Source: a virus | Length of the DNA stretch: 22,780 nt | IMG/VR virus record: IMGVR_UViG_3300030382_000316 | Span: 352 to 23,131 of that record | Strand: one strand, 5' to 3' | Part shown: piece by piece, positions 2,423 to 14,670 of the stretch | How the letters are laid out: the number at the start of each line of letters is the position of its first letter | Numbering within the stretch: position 1 is the stretch's first letter | Notes under the pieces: model-generated | Seen by the model: only the letters and a program-made list of their open reading frames with translations | Databases searched by the model: none | What the model was told of the DNA's origin: nothing | Program-made: the position numbers and the translations under genes

Positions 2423-2976
2423 ATGCTTTCTATTACCTCTATGACTTTGTTAATATTAGTGTAGAACCATTCGCCTTCGTATTCATTACATATTCTTTTT
2501 AATCTTCTATGTGCTGTACTTTCTGCGCTTCTTCTATCTTTAAATTCTTTTCGATATTCTATTCTGTAATCTCTGAACGGACTGGATGTTTGGTATCCTT
2601 TACATCTATCATCTGCATCAATAGCCATACCAACTTTAAACCAACCTTTCCATGCGGGGTTACTTATAATATATACTTCTCCTTCTGTAGAAGATTCATA
2701 CTTTTCAAAAGAAGAAAAGGCGGCGGCTTCAAAAGTTTTATAATTTCCAGGTTTATGTAAAGGATGTGATCTTGGTATATATTTACCATTGACTGTCATA
2801 ACTTTATCAAATCTTTTACGTAAGGTTTCTGCTCTTTCTCTTGTATGATTACCACTTTTCAAACTACTTCCTGTTTTGGGATAATAATACCACCATTCTC
2901 CATCCACGAATTTATATCTTTCAGGATGTTTTATATATTTACCCATAGGGTTTTCAGGTATATTAATGTGTTTCAC
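2419..2976 (-). CDS. GIY-YIG superfamily protein, T5orf172-like domain
   Basis: A 185-residue protein whose C-terminal half carries a GIY-YIG-type nuclease core: VYIISNPAW (about 101-109), FKVGMAIDADDRCKGYQTSS (113-132), an AESTAHRRL helix with E152 and H156, and GEWF (168-171). This matches the T5orf172 group, which occurs in phage and bacterial DNA-binding proteins. The N-terminal 95 residues are Trp/Tyr- and Arg-rich with KYIPRSHPLHKPGNY, perhaps a DNA-binding part. It overlaps the polymerase gene end by 14 bases. It could be a free-standing homing-type endonuclease between polymerase and exonuclease or a resident DNA-processing enzyme; the tight overlap favours the latter. Confidence 0.7.
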   Translation of the reverse strand: MKHINIPENPMGKYIKHPERYKFVDGEWWYYYPKTGSSLKSGNHTRERAETLRKRFDKVMTVNGKYIPRSHPLHKPGNYKTFEAAAFSSFEKYESSTEGEVYIISNPAWKGWFKVGMAIDADDRCKGYQTSSPFRDYRIEYRKEFKDRRSAESTAHRRLKRICNEYEGEWFYTNINKVIEVIESI

Positions 2977-4696
2977 TCCAGTTATCTCCTATTTTAAATT
3001 CACCATCTAAAGGACAGCGCATACTGAAATGCTCTCCTGCTTCTCTAATAGCTTCGACACCAAGCGTACCAAATTCTTCTGCTTGATCTTGTTTAACTTC
3101 TACTTGCCATTCATCATGTATGTTAGCAACAAATTTGTAATCTATATTGTTTTGTTTTGCTTTATCATTCAGAATAACAAGCGCTTTCTTCATAACAATT
3201 GCACCACCGCCTTGTAATAAGGAATTTAAAGCGGCGTGTTTGTTACGAATATAAATCTTTCTACCATCTATTCCTTTGAGATGTCCTCTATAAGAGGCGC
3301 GTTCAACCTTATCTCTAAGAGATTTAAAGGATGGTTGATTATCAAAGAAATGTTTTCTAATCTTAGCACCTGCAGCTTTATTACCACCAATAACTTGACC
3401 AAGTTTAGCATCACCCGCGCCATAGCACAAGGCGTATATCATGGTTTTGGCTTGATCTCTTGACTTAAGACCTGCAGTTTTTTGATTATGAGAATGTATA
3501 TCGCCGTGTATAATTTCATTTATAAATTTCCTGTCTCTCATATAATGTGCCAGCATTCTTAATTCTAATCCGCTTGCATCAATACCTACTAATTTATATT
3601 CATCATCTACAATCCAACATTCTCTACATTCTTTTCCGTATTCACTACGAACATTAGGAACTTGTCCAGTATTAGGACTACGGTGTGCCATACGACCAGT
3701 TATAGTACCGTTAGTAATAACGAAACCGTGTATTCTATTGTCATCTCTAACAGCATCTATCCAAGATTCAATTTGCGCAATTCTTTTTTGTAATAATAAA
3801 AACTCTGCAATAAGTTTTGCTTCAGGGATATGTTTAACTTTTGAAAGAGAAGATTCATTTACAATAGGTTGTCCTGTTGGTGTGAAATTATTAGGTTTCC
3901 AACCAAAGTCTTTTAAGTATTCACCTATTTGTTTACGAGAACCTAGATTAAATTCTTGTAGTTTCTGTCGCATGAAAGGTTTATAATCTTTTGATTCTAA
4001 AGCTCTTTCATATTCTTCACTTGTTAATCCTGATTTAGATAAGCCACCATCTTTCTTAAACTTAGGTGTTACTAATTTTACATCAACCCACTTAGGTTTA
4101 AATGTAGAGCGTACTTCTTTCTGAACAATAGACATTCTTTCTTTTAAAGAAGAAGATAAGATAGATGCTTTCTTTGTATCAAATAAAAAGCCATCATCTT
4201 CTTGTTGTTTTATAATCTTAAAGACATCATGTTCTAATATAACAGACTCTTCAGAAAATTCTTCTGCTTCAGAAGTAAGATAATTAAATATCTTTTCATT
4301 TAAAATAACATCTTGCTTACAATATTTAAGCATGTCTTCTGTATAAACTTCCCAATCATTAGGCTCTTTACCTTTAGGACAGTGTACAATATAACCCCAA
4401 TTACTTAGGCTGTGTCCACCATCACGAACAGGATCAAATAATCTTGACATCACCAATGTATCTACAATAATTTTATCTTTAAATAAATCTATATTATATA
4501 GTTTCTTTATTACTGGAATGTCAAACCCAATAATGTTATGACCAATTAAAACATCAGCATCTTCTAATAATTTAATACCTTGTTTTATATCGTCTGGTCT
4601 AAAAGATTTAACTTCTTGTCCTAAAGGTTTAGCAACAAGACAATGAATCTTATCAGGTTTTAATCCGTTTGTTTCTATATCAAATATTATGTCCAT
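2963..4696 (-). CDS. Family A DNA polymerase with 3'-5' exonuclease domain (T7 gp5-like)
   Basis: Replicates the phage genome. The proofreading domain looks intact: DIET with D6 and E8, GHNIIGFD with N54 and D59, and YCKQD with Y125 and D129. The polymerase has TGRMAHRSPNTGQVP (333-347), motif A DASGLELR with D373, motif B R413 to Y425 (RDQAKTMIYALCYGAG) and motif C HDE (527-529). The residue equivalent to E. coli Pol I F762 is Y421, as in T7. At 577 residues it is about 130 shorter than T7 gp5, apparently without the thumb insertion that binds thioredoxin in T7. The ATG at 4696 follows a GGAG ribosome site. It sits directly after primase-helicase in the same operon. Confidence 0.95.
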   Translation of the reverse strand: MDIIFDIETNGLKPDKIHCLVAKPLGQEVKSFRPDDIKQGIKLLEDADVLIGHNIIGFDIPVIKKLYNIDLFKDKIIVDTLVMSRLFDPVRDGGHSLSNWGYIVHCPKGKEPNDWEVYTEDMLKYCKQDVILNEKIFNYLTSEAEEFSEESVILEHDVFKIIKQQEDDGFLFDTKKASILSSSLKERMSIVQKEVRSTFKPKWVDVKLVTPKFKKDGGLSKSGLTSEEYERALESKDYKPFMRQKLQEFNLGSRKQIGEYLKDFGWKPNNFTPTGQPIVNESSLSKVKHIPEAKLIAEFLLLQKRIAQIESWIDAVRDDNRIHGFVITNGTITGRMAHRSPNTGQVPNVRSEYGKECRECWIVDDEYKLVGIDASGLELRMLAHYMRDRKFINEIIHGDIHSHNQKTAGLKSRDQAKTMIYALCYGAGDAKLGQVIGGNKAAGAKIRKHFFDNQPSFKSLRDKVERASYRGHLKGIDGRKIYIRNKHAALNSLLQGGGAIVMKKALVILNDKAKQNNIDYKFVANIHDEWQVEVKQDQAEEFGTLGVEAIREAGEHFSMRCPLDGEFKIGDNWSETH

Positions 4697-4706
4697 GTTT
4701 TCTCCA

Positions 4707-6365
4707 TTAAAAATCTATATCGTCAAATGTTTCTTCACCAGTTATCTCGTGCATTCGACCTGTTTTAAGATTATATTTTAAGTGACAAGCTAATCCTGTA
4801 TCTCCTGTGTATCTAGATTTTAACACTCTAATTTTAGTTGTGTTAGCTTCTTCAGGATCATCTGCTTGTTGGTTTCTTTCTAAGGCTATGACACTATCAG
4901 ATAATTGGCTTATTCCTTGTGAACCTTTAAGATGCGACAGTGATACAACAACACCTTGCTCGTGTCCTCTATCTCCTGCGGCTCTACGAAGATGCGCAAC
5001 TAAGAACATACCAACTCCAGTTTCTTCAACAAGAGAACGAAGTCTATTCATTAGTTGATCAATGCCTCGTCTTTCATCTGATTCCGTTATACAATTAACA
5101 AGCATATGTAAATGATCTATTATTACCCACTCACATTCACAACCAATAATCATATATCTTAGTTTAGAAAATATATCGTCTATGTTTGTAACACCTAGAT
5201 GTGAATGAATAAAGACTCTACCTTCTTGTATTACTCTATCAAAGAGATCGCTGAGTTCTTCGTCTGTATATTTCTCTCGTTTCTCTGATAAATATAGGCG
5301 GTCATTTGCTTCAATAGATATAATTCCGTCTGCTGTTTTCAACCAGTTCTCTTCAAGAGCAATGATACCTATGTTGTCTTTAGTATTCTTTATAAGATAA
5401 TGTGAAAGCTCTCGTGTGAATGAGCTTTTACCTAGTCCTGTTCCACCTGAAATACAAACCAATTCTGATTTGCGCATTCCGTATAGTTTTTTATTCAATC
5501 CTTCCCAAGGATAAGCAAGACTATCTTTTACTTCTCGGTGTAACCACTTATCTTTTTCTCCAGACAATTCTAATATGCCTGATGGTGTAAATTTCTTAGC
5601 TTCCCACCACGCTTTAGTAAATTCGCTGTATCTATTCTGTTGTAGCATGGCGTTGGCATCTTTAAATCCAACAGGTAAAGACATGATCTTAACCTTGCCA
5701 GGTTTTATAACCTTTGCTACATCTCTTGCGGCTTTTCTACCTGCTTGATCGTTATCAAAACAAAGGACAACACTTTCAAATGATTCAACAAATTCTATAC
5801 TGTCTCTAATGTCTCTGACTGCAGACTGTGCGCCTCTTTTAATAGACACGACTGCCCATTTGCTGTCCATCATTTCATGTACTGCTAGTGCATCACACTC
5901 ACCTTCTGTTATAGTAAGATGTTTACCACCAGTATTACGAAATAACTGTTCACCAAACAGTCCTGTATTCTCATACGTACCACTGAATCTAAAATCTTTA
6001 TCGGCAACTAATCTTGTTTTAGTTCCTACAATTTCATTGCCATTAAAAAATGGATAGATATGTTTTGAAATCTTACCATCATTATTATAAACAATTCGAA
6101 CACCGTATTTTTTAGCAGTCTTTTCGCTGATACCACGATCAGTAAGTTCTGCATAAACTCCTGTGTAGGAATTTAAGAATGTTGTTTCTTTTGGTTTAGT
6201 GGTTGTTATAGTATTAGTACCTGTCGGTTTCTTATAATCAGTGAACCAAGTGCCGCAACTAAAACATTTGGCAGTACCATTTGTATTCATTGCAACAGGA
6301 TCAGATCCACCGCATTGTGGACAGGGTAATTTATATTCTGACCAATTACTTTCTTGTAAATTCAT
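4707..6365 (-). CDS. Bifunctional primase-helicase (T7 gp4-like)
   Basis: Unwinds DNA at the fork and makes RNA primers. Residues are numbered from the ATG at 6365. A zinc-binding domain has C15, C18, C34 and C37 (CPQCGG and CFSCG). The TOPRIM primase part shows TITEGECDA (about 150-158) and VVLCFDNDQAG (about 199-209). The RecA-like helicase has Walker A GGTGLGKSS (307-315), Walker B VIIDHLH (about 414-420), LKGSQGISQLSDSVIALER (about 479-497) and SRYTGDTG (517-524) near the arginine finger. The open frame extends to a TTG at 6380, but that stretch contains the GAGGGAG ribosome site, so the ATG at 6365 is preferred. It ends 10 bases before polymerase. Confidence 0.95.
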   Translation of the reverse strand: MNLQESNWSEYKLPCPQCGGSDPVAMNTNGTAKCFSCGTWFTDYKKPTGTNTITTTKPKETTFLNSYTGVYAELTDRGISEKTAKKYGVRIVYNNDGKISKHIYPFFNGNEIVGTKTRLVADKDFRFSGTYENTGLFGEQLFRNTGGKHLTITEGECDALAVHEMMDSKWAVVSIKRGAQSAVRDIRDSIEFVESFESVVLCFDNDQAGRKAARDVAKVIKPGKVKIMSLPVGFKDANAMLQQNRYSEFTKAWWEAKKFTPSGILELSGEKDKWLHREVKDSLAYPWEGLNKKLYGMRKSELVCISGGTGLGKSSFTRELSHYLIKNTKDNIGIIALEENWLKTADGIISIEANDRLYLSEKREKYTDEELSDLFDRVIQEGRVFIHSHLGVTNIDDIFSKLRYMIIGCECEWVIIDHLHMLVNCITESDERRGIDQLMNRLRSLVEETGVGMFLVAHLRRAAGDRGHEQGVVVSLSHLKGSQGISQLSDSVIALERNQQADDPEEANTTKIRVLKSRYTGDTGLACHLKYNLKTGRMHEITGEETFDDIDF

Positions 6366-6387
6366 AAGCATCTCCCTCAAATGAAAA

Positions 6388-12191: not shown

Positions 12192-12461
12192 TCATATTGA
12201 TTTCCGTATATATTTCTCAATGACTGGTATTAAAAGCATAGGCAATAAACAACCTAATATAACACCAAAGAAAAATTCGTTGATCGTCATGCTTTCAAGT
12301 AATGACGCAACTGCATCTGAAATAGTATTGCCTAATCCAGCACCAACAACAGCACCTAAAGCACCATTTCCCTTAGTGAATAGTCTATCAAACTCTAAGC
12401 CTGTATAAGCACCCAGAATTAGAATACCATTATCCACTAATCCAAAGACTAACCCTTCCAT
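12192..12461 (-). CDS. Small glycine-rich membrane protein (89 aa)
   Basis: Two hydrophobic segments are visible. The first region (about 4-20 and 31-48) is glycine-rich with GALGAVVGAGLGNTISDAVA, a glycine-zipper-like pattern. The second (about 63-80) is FFFGVILGCLLPMLLIPV, followed by a basic tail (EKYIRKS). Similar short membrane proteins occur in marine phages and bacteria with no known function. It overlaps the preceding gene by 13 bases. A holin-like role is conceivable from two helices but unlikely in the early arm. Confidence 0.62.
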   Translation of the reverse strand: MEGLVFGLVDNGILILGAYTGLEFDRLFTKGNGALGAVVGAGLGNTISDAVASLLESMTINEFFFGVILGCLLPMLLIPVIEKYIRKSI

Positions 12462-12637
12462 TTTAATTTTCTCTTTTTATCAATATCTTCAGACTTTAAA
12501 ATTTCTGCTCCCATTAATTCAATAATCTCAAATGCCTCGCTGAGAGAAGCTCCTAAAACAATTCTTAATGCTCTAATAAGATGGATTTTATCAGTGCAAT
12601 TAACAAATGCATTTATTTTTGGATAATCACGTTCCAT
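12449..12637 (-). CDS. Small protein resembling the bL12 (L7/L12) C-terminal domain (62 aa)
   Basis: The 62-residue product has KIHLIRALRIVLGASLSEAF (17-36) followed by EIIEL. This follows the ribosomal protein L7/L12 C-terminal pattern K-I/V-x-x-I-K/R-A-V-R ... G-x-x-L-x-E-A-x-x-x-V/I-E. The rest of L12 (N-terminal dimer domain and hinge) is missing, so it is not a ribosomal protein. It might contact translation factors that normally bind L12, or simply share the fold. The similarity is by eye and needs a profile search. It is the first gene after the promoter at 12697-12725. Confidence 0.5.
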   Translation of the reverse strand: MERDYPKINAFVNCTDKIHLIRALRIVLGASLSEAFEIIELMGAEILKSEDIDKKRKLKWKG

Positions 12638-12672: not shown

Positions 12673-12794
12673 TTGCTTTGGCGACAAAGCCTATGAAGTA
12701 TTGCACAGACGCTGAAAAATGTCAAGGGGTTTACACGCGTATAGCACAACTTAGTACACAATATATAATGTTGCGCAAAAAGTATTAAGATGTG
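12673..12794 (-). repeat. Promoter cassette, copy 2
   Basis: Second copy of the intergenic cassette at 12070-12188, with the identical 24-bp block at 12716-12739, CAATATATA, TTGCGCAAA (12771-12779) and GTATTAAGA (12782-12790) in the same order and nearly the same spacing. The leader hairpin here is GCTTT with AAAGC. Sequence between the conserved words has diverged. Confidence 0.75.
12697..12725 (-). promoter_or_regulatory. Sigma70-type leftward promoter (copy 2 of duplicated cassette)
   Basis: TTGACA (12725-12720), a 17-base spacer and AATACT (12702-12697) give a strong promoter with a start near 12690. It would express the L12-like and glycine-rich membrane genes. The AGGC four bases after the ATACTT is shared with the promoters at 12117 and 7346. 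Confidence 0.75.
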
Positions 12795-12860
12795 GTGGGT
12801 TAATTAATAGCCTCTTAATACACAAAACCCACAATCAAATAAGGATTTCACTTTTTTACT

Positions 12861-12915
12861 TGTGGATAAGTTGTTAATAAGCTGTTAATAGACTGTTAAT
12901 AAGCTGTTAATTAGC
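12861..12915. repeat. Array of five 11-bp repeats headed by a consensus DnaA box (candidate origin)
   Basis: TGTGGATAA at 12861-12869 is the exact reverse complement of the bacterial DnaA box TTATCCACA. It is the first unit of five units with an exact 11-bp period: TGTGGATAAGT, TGTTAATAAGC, TGTTAATAGAC, TGTTAATAAGC and TGTTAATTAGC. Units 2-5 differ from the box mainly in the central GG to TA change. The period places every unit on nearly the same DNA face. AT-rich sequence flanks it (12800-12860). This resembles an origin iteron array or a DnaA-controlled site. It lies in a gene-free stretch (12638-13157) at the junction of the two arms. Confidence 0.7.
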
Positions 12916-12946
12916 AATTTCATGCCCTCAATACTACGCGCCATCT

Positions 12947-13157: not shown

Positions 13158-13433
13158 CTATTTCTGGCTTTGAGCCACATAGTCTTGGATCTTATTGCGA
13201 TACTTAGCTGGTAGACTTTTCTTATCGAATAGCTTGCTAGCTTGATCGAAAGTAAATCGTCCTTCCTTAGTCTCATTCCAGAGGCAGCCTTGGATTTGCT
13301 TAGATACTCTGTAGTTAGGCTTGCCGCCTATAGAGCCACAAAGTCTGAAGCTTAAGCCGCGTATTTGTCCCCATGTTGCTGGACCTTTTCTAGTCGCAGC
13401 AGGAACTTGATTTATATCGAATGTTTCAGTCAT
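13158..13433 (-). CDS. Hypothetical protein (91 aa), the only gene in the central regulatory region
   Basis: Not recognised. The product has PATWGQIRGLSFRLCGSIGG and later EGRFTFDQASKLFDKKSLPA, and ends in a basic helix (KYRNKIQDYVAQ). The look is of a small helical DNA-binding or regulatory protein. The frame is open to an ATG at 13502, giving 114 residues. However, the ATG at 13433 has an AGGA site 9 bases upstream, and composition drops from about 45 to 28 percent G+C before it, so the shorter start is preferred. It lies beside the candidate origin and under the leftward promoter at 14197, a place where phages often keep a replication initiator or regulator. Confidence 0.6.
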   Translation of the reverse strand: MTETFDINQVPAATRKGPATWGQIRGLSFRLCGSIGGKPNYRVSKQIQGCLWNETKEGRFTFDQASKLFDKKSLPAKYRNKIQDYVAQSQK

Positions 13434-13487
13434 GATATTTTGTCCTATATTAGTTAAGTTATTGAGACTATTAGATAAATTACGAAT

Positions 13488-13577
13488 ATCTGAGAAGTCC
13501 ATTTGGAGATTACTTAGTGTAATAGAAAACTTGTTTTCGTTAATTGCACTTAGGAATTCTATGTGGACTTCTCAGAT
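13488..13577. repeat. Large imperfect inverted repeat (about 90 bp) upstream of the 13158-13433 gene
   Basis: Outer arms ATCTGAGAAGTCCA (13488-13501) and TGGACTTCTCAGAT (13564-13577) match over 14 bp without error. Inside, AGTGTAAT pairs with ATTGCACT (one wobble) and GAAAAC pairs with GTTTTC across two bases. The whole could fold into one long stem-loop in RNA, or extrude from DNA. It is AT-rich and lies in the leader of the gene below. No open frame supports coding here. Confidence 0.65.
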
Positions 13578-13639
13578 TTCATAATTTTCAATACAAATCA
13601 ATAACTTAAGTAAGATAGGTTATCAAAATACCTGACTGA

Positions 13640-14054
13640 GAGATTTGGTAGAAATTATGTTATCGCTGAGACTAGGGAAGGTTCTGTGGTTGCAACATGT
13701 GGGACATATGCGTGGTTTAAGGTGAATGCCTTGACTTTGTAGCTCTATAGGTGGTGAGACTGAGTACAGCGTAGATATGTGAATCCATGGTTGGATATGG
13801 AAGGAGGCTAGGGAAGGACTGCGTTGTGATTTACTTACGATCAAGCTGGTGAGATAGTTGATTAGAAAAGACACCAGCTAAGTGTTGTGATAAGATACAT
13901 CTCTTCAGACTATGTAGGTGAAAAGACTGAGATAGCATAGGTCACTGATGGCGGGGGGTTATGAAATTTATAGAGATTCCACACCCTTCAACGCGTAGGA
14001 TCTTGTAGAGTAGAACCCCCATGCAGGATCCCCTACCACCCTCCATCCATATAT
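13640..14054 (+). other. Higher-G+C non-coding stretch, candidate structured RNA
   Basis: About 415 bases at roughly 45 percent G+C, compared with 27-28 percent just upstream, without a convincing gene on either strand. The plus strand is G-rich. Several perfect stems can be drawn: AGCTGGTG with CACCAGCT (13844-13851, 13872-13879), GGGGGTT with AACCCCC (13954-13960, 14014-14020), AAGG with CCTT around 13720, and ATCTC with GAGAT near 13900-13930. It ends at a plus-strand terminator-like hairpin (14055-14075). CTAGGGAAGG occurs twice (13672 and 13808). No strong plus-strand promoter is seen at its left edge, and a minus-strand leader from 14162 would cross it instead. RNA identity is unproven. 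Confidence 0.3.
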
Positions 14055-14075
14055 ATGTAATGGTTACATGTTTTT
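14055..14075 (+). terminator. Plus-strand intrinsic terminator-like hairpin
   Basis: ATGTAA, TGG loop, TTACAT, then GTTTTTATA. The 6-bp stem is AT-rich but is followed by five T residues. It has no protein gene upstream on its strand, so it would end a non-coding plus-strand transcript or insulate the terminase promoter. Confidence 0.45.
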
Positions 14076-14123
14076 ATAGAAAATGAATGTAAACCAGTTT
14101 CCCCGAACTTAATAGACTATAAA

Positions 14124-14167
14124 ACTCTTCGTCAGAGTGTACTATCAACCTTGGGGGGGACAAGGTT
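14124..14167 (-). promoter_or_regulatory. Leader hairpins just inside the leftward promoter at 14197
   Basis: AACCTTG (14147-14153) and CAAGGTT (14161-14167) pair over a 7-base loop of GGGGGGA on the plus strand. On the minus transcript this hairpin would be at or near the 5' end. About 10 bases further on, ACTCT and AGAGT (14138-14124) form a second hairpin followed by TTTATAG, a weak terminator pattern. A short leader RNA or attenuation is possible. Confidence 0.35.
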
Positions 14168-14168
14168 C

Positions 14169-14197
14169 ATTGTACAGTCGTAAATGACTTTTGTCAA
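14169..14197 (-). promoter_or_regulatory. Leftward sigma70-type promoter of the divergent pair
   Basis: TTGACA (14197-14192), a 17-base spacer and TACAAT (14174-14169), with a start near 14162. It points into the central region, toward the 13158-13433 gene over 700 bases away. TTGACAAAAG and GACTGTA are mirrored in the rightward promoter at 14214-14241. Confidence 0.72.
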
Positions 14198-14213
14198 TCT
14201 TTTAATTATCTAC

Positions 14214-14241
14214 TTGACAAAAGAGCATATGACTGTAAACT
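14214..14241 (+). promoter_or_regulatory. Rightward sigma70-type promoter of the terminase operon
   Basis: TTGACA (14214-14219), a 16-base spacer and TAAACT (14236-14241). The expected start falls at about 14248, the A of the terminase small-subunit ATG, which has no ribosome-binding sequence before it. CTTTTGTCAA and TTGACAAAAG (14189-14198 and 14214-14223) and the outer TACAGTC and GACTGTA (14173-14179 and 14231-14237) form a mirror-symmetric block with the leftward promoter. Confidence 0.72.
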
Positions 14242-14247
14242 AGATCT

Positions 14248-14670
14248 ATGACTGGTTTACTAAACTCCCTCAACCGCAAGAAAGAATTAACTGTTAAACA
14301 ACAATCATTTCTAGACCATCTCGTTGATACAAACGGAGATGCTAAGAAGTCTGCTGAGTTAGCAGGCTATTCAGGCAATCATTATCAAGTCTTAAAGTCT
14401 CTGAAGAATGAAGTGTTGGAACTTACAACAGAAGTTCTTGCGCAATCTGCACCACAAGCAGCTTTCAAATTACTAGACATCATGAATGCAGATGCGCCAA
14501 TCCCGCAAGCAACCAACAAACTACAAGCAGCACAAACAATACTGGATCGTGTAGGCATTGCAAAGACAGAGCGTTTAGATATAAACCATAAAGTATCCAG
14601 TGGTATTTTTATTATGCCAGAGAAAGAAACAGTAATCATAGACGCGGAAGTTATAAAGGACAGTGAGTGA
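14248..14670 (+). CDS. terS: Terminase small subunit
   Basis: Recognises phage DNA and starts packaging with the large subunit. The 140-residue protein has an N-terminal helix-turn-helix-like block (LTVKQQSFLDHLVDTNGDAK, then KSAELAGYSG), typical of terminase small subunits that bind DNA. A helical oligomerisation part follows (EVLAQSAPQAAFKLLDIMNA, then QAAQTILDRVGIAK). It ends in a short tail (ETVIIDAEVIKDSE). It opens the rightward operon and lies 1.9 kb before the large subunit, separated by small genes. No ribosome site precedes the ATG, and the predicted transcription start is at or next to it, so it may be translated leaderless. Confidence 0.83.
   Translation: MTGLLNSLNRKKELTVKQQSFLDHLVDTNGDAKKSAELAGYSGNHYQVLKSLKNEVLELTTEVLAQSAPQAAFKLLDIMNADAPIPQATNKLQAAQTILDRVGIAKTERLDINHKVSSGIFIMPEKETVIIDAEVIKDSE

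Follow-up and report, generated by a model that had tools for sequence, protein, structure and literature searches.

A candidate host-DnaA loading array in the control region of an HMO-2011-like marine phage

Main

A marine virus record from IMG/VR carries, in a gap between two genes, one exact DnaA box followed by four weakened copies of it in strict 11-bp register. The array is probably a functional DnaA-type element of some kind. The more specific reading that we favour, a host-DnaA loading track in the origin or early-control region of an HMO-2011-like phage, appears to us about evenly balanced between right and wrong. That reading builds on the array itself and its statistics, on the way it and parts of it recur and are conserved in related phages, and on its oriC-like design. 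HMO-2011-type phages are an abundant marine group, and the start of their replication is not described in the open-access papers that we found; such a phage may borrow host DnaA to begin or time its own replication. The window analysed here comprises 22,780 bases of a 23,131-base record, and all positions below refer to it.

Results

The array spans 12861–12915. Its first unit, the strong site, is an exact consensus DnaA box, TTATCCACA, on the minus strand at 12861–12869 (reading TGTGGATAA on the plus strand), as the original prediction had stated, and it is the sole exact DnaA box of the whole 23,131-bp record. Four weak units follow on the same strand: unit 2 (TTATTAACA, or TGTTAATAA on the plus strand; 12872–12880) begins after a 2-bp gap, and units 3 (CTATTAACA, or TGTTAATAG on the plus strand; 12883–12891), 4 (again TTATTAACA; 12894–12902) and 5 (TAATTAACA, or TGTTAATTA on the plus strand; 12905–12913) complete the series. 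The array is thus an ordered run of 9-mers with 2 bp between them, TGTGGATAAGT TGTTAATAAGC TGTTAATAGAC TGTTAATAAGC TGTTAATTAGC, whose starts (12861, 12872, 12883, 12894 and 12905) fall at exact 11-bp steps. Two features that characterize oriC-type arrays are found here: at least one high-affinity TTATNCACA box, which is exact at 12861–12869 in the window and present in 15/15 of the arrays described below, and, judging by geometry, a putative cluster of low-affinity sites in one orientation, 2 bp apart. An 18-nt inverted repeat (83%; arms at 12801–12818 and 12896–12913, with 77 nt between them) spans the strong box and could bring the end of the array into pairing with DNA on the promoter side.

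A lone box would prove nothing, because 0.26 exact boxes are expected by chance somewhere in the window (P = 0.23). Boxes with at most one mismatch are not enriched window-wide either (7 observed versus 7.4 expected), so the signal is the array and not box density. Shifted by 11 bp, the array matches itself at 36 of 44 positions, compared with a mean of 23.6 and a maximum of 28 in shuffled sequences (n = 300). Eleven base pairs gave the best self-match among periods of 8 to 15, bearing out the claim that four further units follow the box at this spacing. The array also holds four DnaA-like unit pairs in register, against 0.01 expected. Given this periodicity and these pairs, we rejected a chance origin. 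A coding repeat was rejected too, as no plausible gene runs across the array in the window.

Relatives were collected by a TerL search, which does not select for the array (80 loci), and 26 non-redundant IMG/VR records, the window included, were picked for upstream coverage. The array is present in 15 of the 26, in a gap 2.7–4.6 kb upstream of TerL; a few of the array-negative records reach only ~4.3–5.7 kb upstream of TerL, and some absences could therefore be record ends. All 15 arrays contain an exact TTATCCACA in or next to degenerate TGTnnATA units, most of them in 11-bp register, and DnaA-like unit pairs at gaps of 2–3 bp occur in 14 of the 15. The strong box stands first on the plus strand in the window's clade and is invariant in 5/5 of its aligned members. 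Clade alignments as a whole show an invariant strong box and variable flanking DNA; in an alignment with a mean column identity of 56%, the box and ATGCCCTCA form the longest invariant blocks. Comparison with related phages had been proposed as a check on the original prediction, and it came out in its favour: relatives keep both the exact box and the spacing of 11 bp even though the surrounding intergenic DNA has diverged. Conserved box, conserved spacing and oriC-like layout together argue for reading the units as a DnaA-box array.

The weak units vary in a restricted way. Among 48 of them, taken from ten arrays, TGT and A6 are kept in 48, T7 in 45 and A8 in 44. Variation is concentrated at positions 4–5 (the complements of C6 and C5 of TTATCCACA), with the consensus base at position 4 in a single unit of the 48. 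Set against the published consensus TTA/TTNCACA, the weak units would be boxes damaged mainly at C6, subject to the proviso that the DnaA specificity of the host may differ.

Beside the array lies a second conserved element, TATTGAGGGCAT (12922–12933, minus strand), of the type (T/G)GAGGGC(A/G). In 15/15 array-bearing records, (T/G)GAGGGC is a minus-strand element that flanks the array toward TerL, and it keeps its place and strand even in relatives that have no DnaA array. It may be part of an origin, a packaging site or a promoter element. For the array itself, the exact, in-register DnaA box speaks against a packaging site (repeats near terS).

What occupies the array slot is exchangeable. 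Two relatives (L014 and L030) have repeated GTACCTT there, beside the same GGAGGGC and without DnaA boxes, and five others (L015, L016, L026, L028 and L033) carry the array plus GTACCTT repeats. These GTACCTT/AAGGTACA repeats (L014:4785–4849 and L030:6229–6285), in or adjoining the slot, are candidate iterons for a phage protein. Since GAGGGC persists without the array, GTACCTT repeats can take the array's place and a predicted promoter lies nearby, the region is, as far as its sequence tells, a modular control region with the DnaA-like array as one interchangeable part.

A slot that can hold another protein's repeats also lends weight to the idea that the units are iterons for a phage-encoded initiator or regulator, one copy of which matches the DnaA box by coincidence. 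The homogenisation of weak units within lineages fits this idea as well. However, the weak units drift among TTAA, TATA and AGAT types while the exact 9/9 consensus box stays in every array, and the core of the units itself matches the DnaA consensus; we regard iterons of this kind as doubtful.

Array layout and distribution also differ among relatives. In the clade of L016, L019, L026, L028, L029 and L033, the units read TGTATATAACC on the minus strand, and in most cases the far end carries a TGTAGATAA unit, to give the order strong, four weak, near-strong; in L364 and L366 the far-end unit is TGTGGATAA. The orientation of the box relative to its flanks is therefore reversed between the two main clades, which counts against a directional opening model, as that model does not predict reversal. 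On the TerL tree, at least 4–5 gains or losses of the array are needed. The close relatives L014, L030, L055 and L023 have no array, and such patchiness indicates that it is not essential to this type of phage. The exact box is likewise absent from the regions examined in HTVC115P, HTVC103P, HTVC033P, HMO-2011, CRP-1 and CRP-235.

The TerL of this phage is 64% identical to that of Pelagibacter phage HTVC115P, and its next best matches are HMO-2011-type phages. A T7-type single-subunit RNA polymerase was not found in seven relative records (four of them >51 kb), although the T7 positive control worked; the window's own record is a fragment. The phage is thus HMO-2011-like and not a true RNA-polymerase-bearing T7-like virus, and the label 'T7-like' originally given to it was wrong in the sense that matters here. 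None of nine relative records has a DnaA domain, and a phage-encoded DnaA was accordingly rejected. From these two absences, the phages appear to have neither a DnaA of their own nor the T7 route to origin opening. An integrase arm-site array (attP) was also rejected, as 12 relative records contained no tyrosine integrase (PF00589).

The left arm of the window is coded on the minus strand and includes a family A DNA polymerase (2963–4696), a T7-type primase-helicase (Toprim + DnaB_C; 4707–6380) and, as the first ORF of this replication arm, a 62-aa ORF of no family (12449–12637). The right arm has plus-strand genes, the first of which is the terminase small subunit gene terS (14248–14670). Between the 62-aa ORF and a second minus-strand ORF (13158–13502; 114 aa, no family and no match among annotated phages) sits the array. 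ORFs similar to the latter occupy the same position in relatives L007 and L029. The coding strand switches within 13503–14247, ~0.6 kb right of the array, which places the array near the junction of the divergent arms but not, as first proposed, exactly at it.

The array had also been described as lying beside AT-rich DNA. Its left flank is 73% AT over 60 bp, a modest enrichment against 65% overall, and the least stable 60-mer lies ~245 bp to the left; in several relatives, the least stable stretch is the array itself. GC skew, suggested as a further check for an origin, gave no independent support. In the window, L007 and L029, we found no skew switch at the array independent of gene direction; skew changes with the coding strand, which accounts for it, and we rejected it as evidence for an origin. 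A skew switch of this kind lends support to an origin and does not strictly define one.

A predicted sigma-70 early promoter (TTGACA-17-AATACT with an extended -10 TG; 12697–12725, minus strand) lies 136 bp from the array and points into the replication/early arm. Most relatives in the two main array-bearing clades have similar predicted sites at distances of 46–153 bp. A purely transcriptional role would suit an array that sits upstream of such a promoter: DnaA would activate or repress the early promoter of the replication arm and so sense the replication state of the host, and the region would not be an origin. DnaA also acts as a transcription regulator through paired boxes 2–3 bp apart (PMC11317965). 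Yet five to six ordered units exceed the box pairs of the DnaA-bound regions in that study, and the distance to the promoter -35 is long and variable. We consider a solely regulatory role unlikely.

The units of the window can be read in another way, as sites through which host CtrA would repress phage genes or set their timing, whether or not DnaA competes for them. Units 2–5 form three overlapping CtrA-type TTAA-N7-TTAA motifs (12874–12910), which the original prediction had not noted, and another lies outside the array (12804–12818). The four in the gap compare with 0.07 expected, and the window total of 9 with 2.5 expected (0/100 shuffles as high). Clusters of CtrA sites between divergent genes, with CtrA binding demonstrated, are known in alphaproteobacterial phages (PMC9437464); for the DnaA sites of its phages, that study found no positional asymmetry. 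Among the 15 arrays, though, TTAA-N7-TTAA pairs are found in the gap of only four, against 14 with DnaA-like pairs, and the sister phages L008, L009 and L011 have none in the gap. The 11-bp spacing alone makes TGTTAATAA units CtrA-like, as it does in a TM6 bacterial array. CtrA therefore fails as a general account, and we judge a CtrA-controlled gap to be very improbable; for the window's own lineage it is a serious rival, and a dual DnaA/CtrA element is possible.

To place the array among other box arrangements, we compared it with pattern matches in larger collections. Among the listed IMG/VR matches (L086–L314; for example, L150, L246 and L257), exact DnaA boxes repeated in tandem every 11 or 12 bp are common; the 12-bp pattern, intended as a negative control, was also widely matched there, and some of the 12-bp arrays may be coding. 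IMG/VR contigs also contain consensus boxes in tandem with 3 bp between them, in agreement with PMC11317965, and their existence means that a broad box pattern does not single out the strong/weak design. Scans with patterns that bar the consensus at unit positions 4–5 returned 11 and 28 contigs (two patterns), much fewer than repeated consensus boxes. DnaA boxes in phages are thus not new as such, and strong-plus-weak arrays are far rarer. In a collection of bacterial and archaeal genomes, a strong-plus-three-weak pattern had only two matches: one in Patescibacteria (L390:754–794), 3.4 kb from dnaA-dnaN, and one in TM6 (L389:5670–5710), which shows the same TGTTAATAA pattern and lies on a contig other than the one with dnaA. 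We found no description of DnaA-box arrays in pelagiphages in the open-access papers searched.

Discussion

The most economical reading of these features would be that host DnaA is recruited to the gap, with origin opening favoured over control of the early promoter. In the loading track that we propose, the high-affinity box would anchor host DnaA, and cooperative head-to-tail binding would then load DnaA onto the four C6-weakened copies, 2 bp apart, one after another, as it does in E. coli oriC. The filament so formed would open the DNA beside or within the track, where the phage's own primase-helicase and family A polymerase could start. We infer that DnaA binds the array, forms a filament and opens the strands there, and that replication starts at this place.

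Several observations count against an origin: the patchy distribution, the absence from the examined regions of isolates, the reversed orientation, the weak AT enrichment and the lack of a skew beyond that of the coding strand. Because of them, our confidence in the origin reading is only about one half.

Clusters of boxes can have a different use. Plasmid-borne clusters titrate DnaA, and clustered boxes also make up datA and DARS (PMC5835720), a precedent for a phage array that serves as a DnaA trap or modulator of its nucleotide state, with replicated phage genomes binding host DnaA and altering host initiation. Early in infection, one strong and four weak sites per genome would trap DnaA poorly, the weak sites would depend on cooperative loading to bind at all, and a trap has no need for a fixed position beside GAGGGC. 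Of the readings weighed here, we find a trap the least probable.

The proposed loading track could also be part of a hybrid origin, in which lytic phages supply a T7-type primase-helicase and a polymerase of their own but rely on the host initiator for the opening step. The strong-to-weak track would read the host's DnaA supply and could be swapped for a GTACCTT module that serves another protein; in the window's lineage, CtrA might read the track as well, forming a DnaA/CtrA gate like those of alphaproteobacterial origins. We put this forward tentatively, as a scheme more likely wrong than right. If the loading-track reading is true, phage replication or early expression would be tied to the host's DnaA supply, and relatives that vary in unit number, orientation and weakness would amount to natural experiments on DnaA cooperativity.

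Iteron plasmid origins with DnaA boxes also place tandem repeats next to such a box between genes; in the phage, by comparison, the repeats themselves are DnaA-like, and we identified no gene for a Rep-type initiator in the window. With HMO-2011-type phages (PMC9038755, which makes no mention of DnaA), the window shares the likeness of its TerL to that of HTVC115P (64%), the family A polymerase and the T7-type primase-helicase; unlike in the window, no exact box is present in the regions examined of the isolates checked. The CtrA clusters of alphaproteobacterial phages (PMC9437464) resemble the window in having TTAA-N7-TTAA repeats near divergent genes, but the CtrA-type sites of the window fall on its DnaA-like units, and most relatives have not conserved them.

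In vivo, DnaA favours pairs of boxes 2 or 3 bp apart (PMC11317965), and both these double boxes and the tandem boxes of other phage contigs have the same 11- or 12-bp head-to-tail spacing as the array. The closest parallel is E. coli oriC, which has two clusters, each of four low-affinity sites with gaps of 2 bp; a strong site donates DnaA to each cluster, and filling is cooperative (PMC6070618). Each half of oriC combines a high-affinity box (R1 or R4) with four low-affinity sites at 2-bp gaps (PMC6070618), and the phage array likewise combines an exact TTATCCACA with four weak units, its strong site leftmost as TGTGGATAA, like the first box of oriC. The two differ in that the weak units of the phage are tandem copies that are almost identical and keep 6/9 or more matches in register, whereas those of oriC are far more diverged (longest in-register chain at 6/9, 1), and in that the strong site of the phage directly touches the weak ones. 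Phage-borne and more regular in geometry than E. coli oriC, the array would, if our reading is correct, be a compact, regular and evolvable phage version of the oriC strong/weak design.
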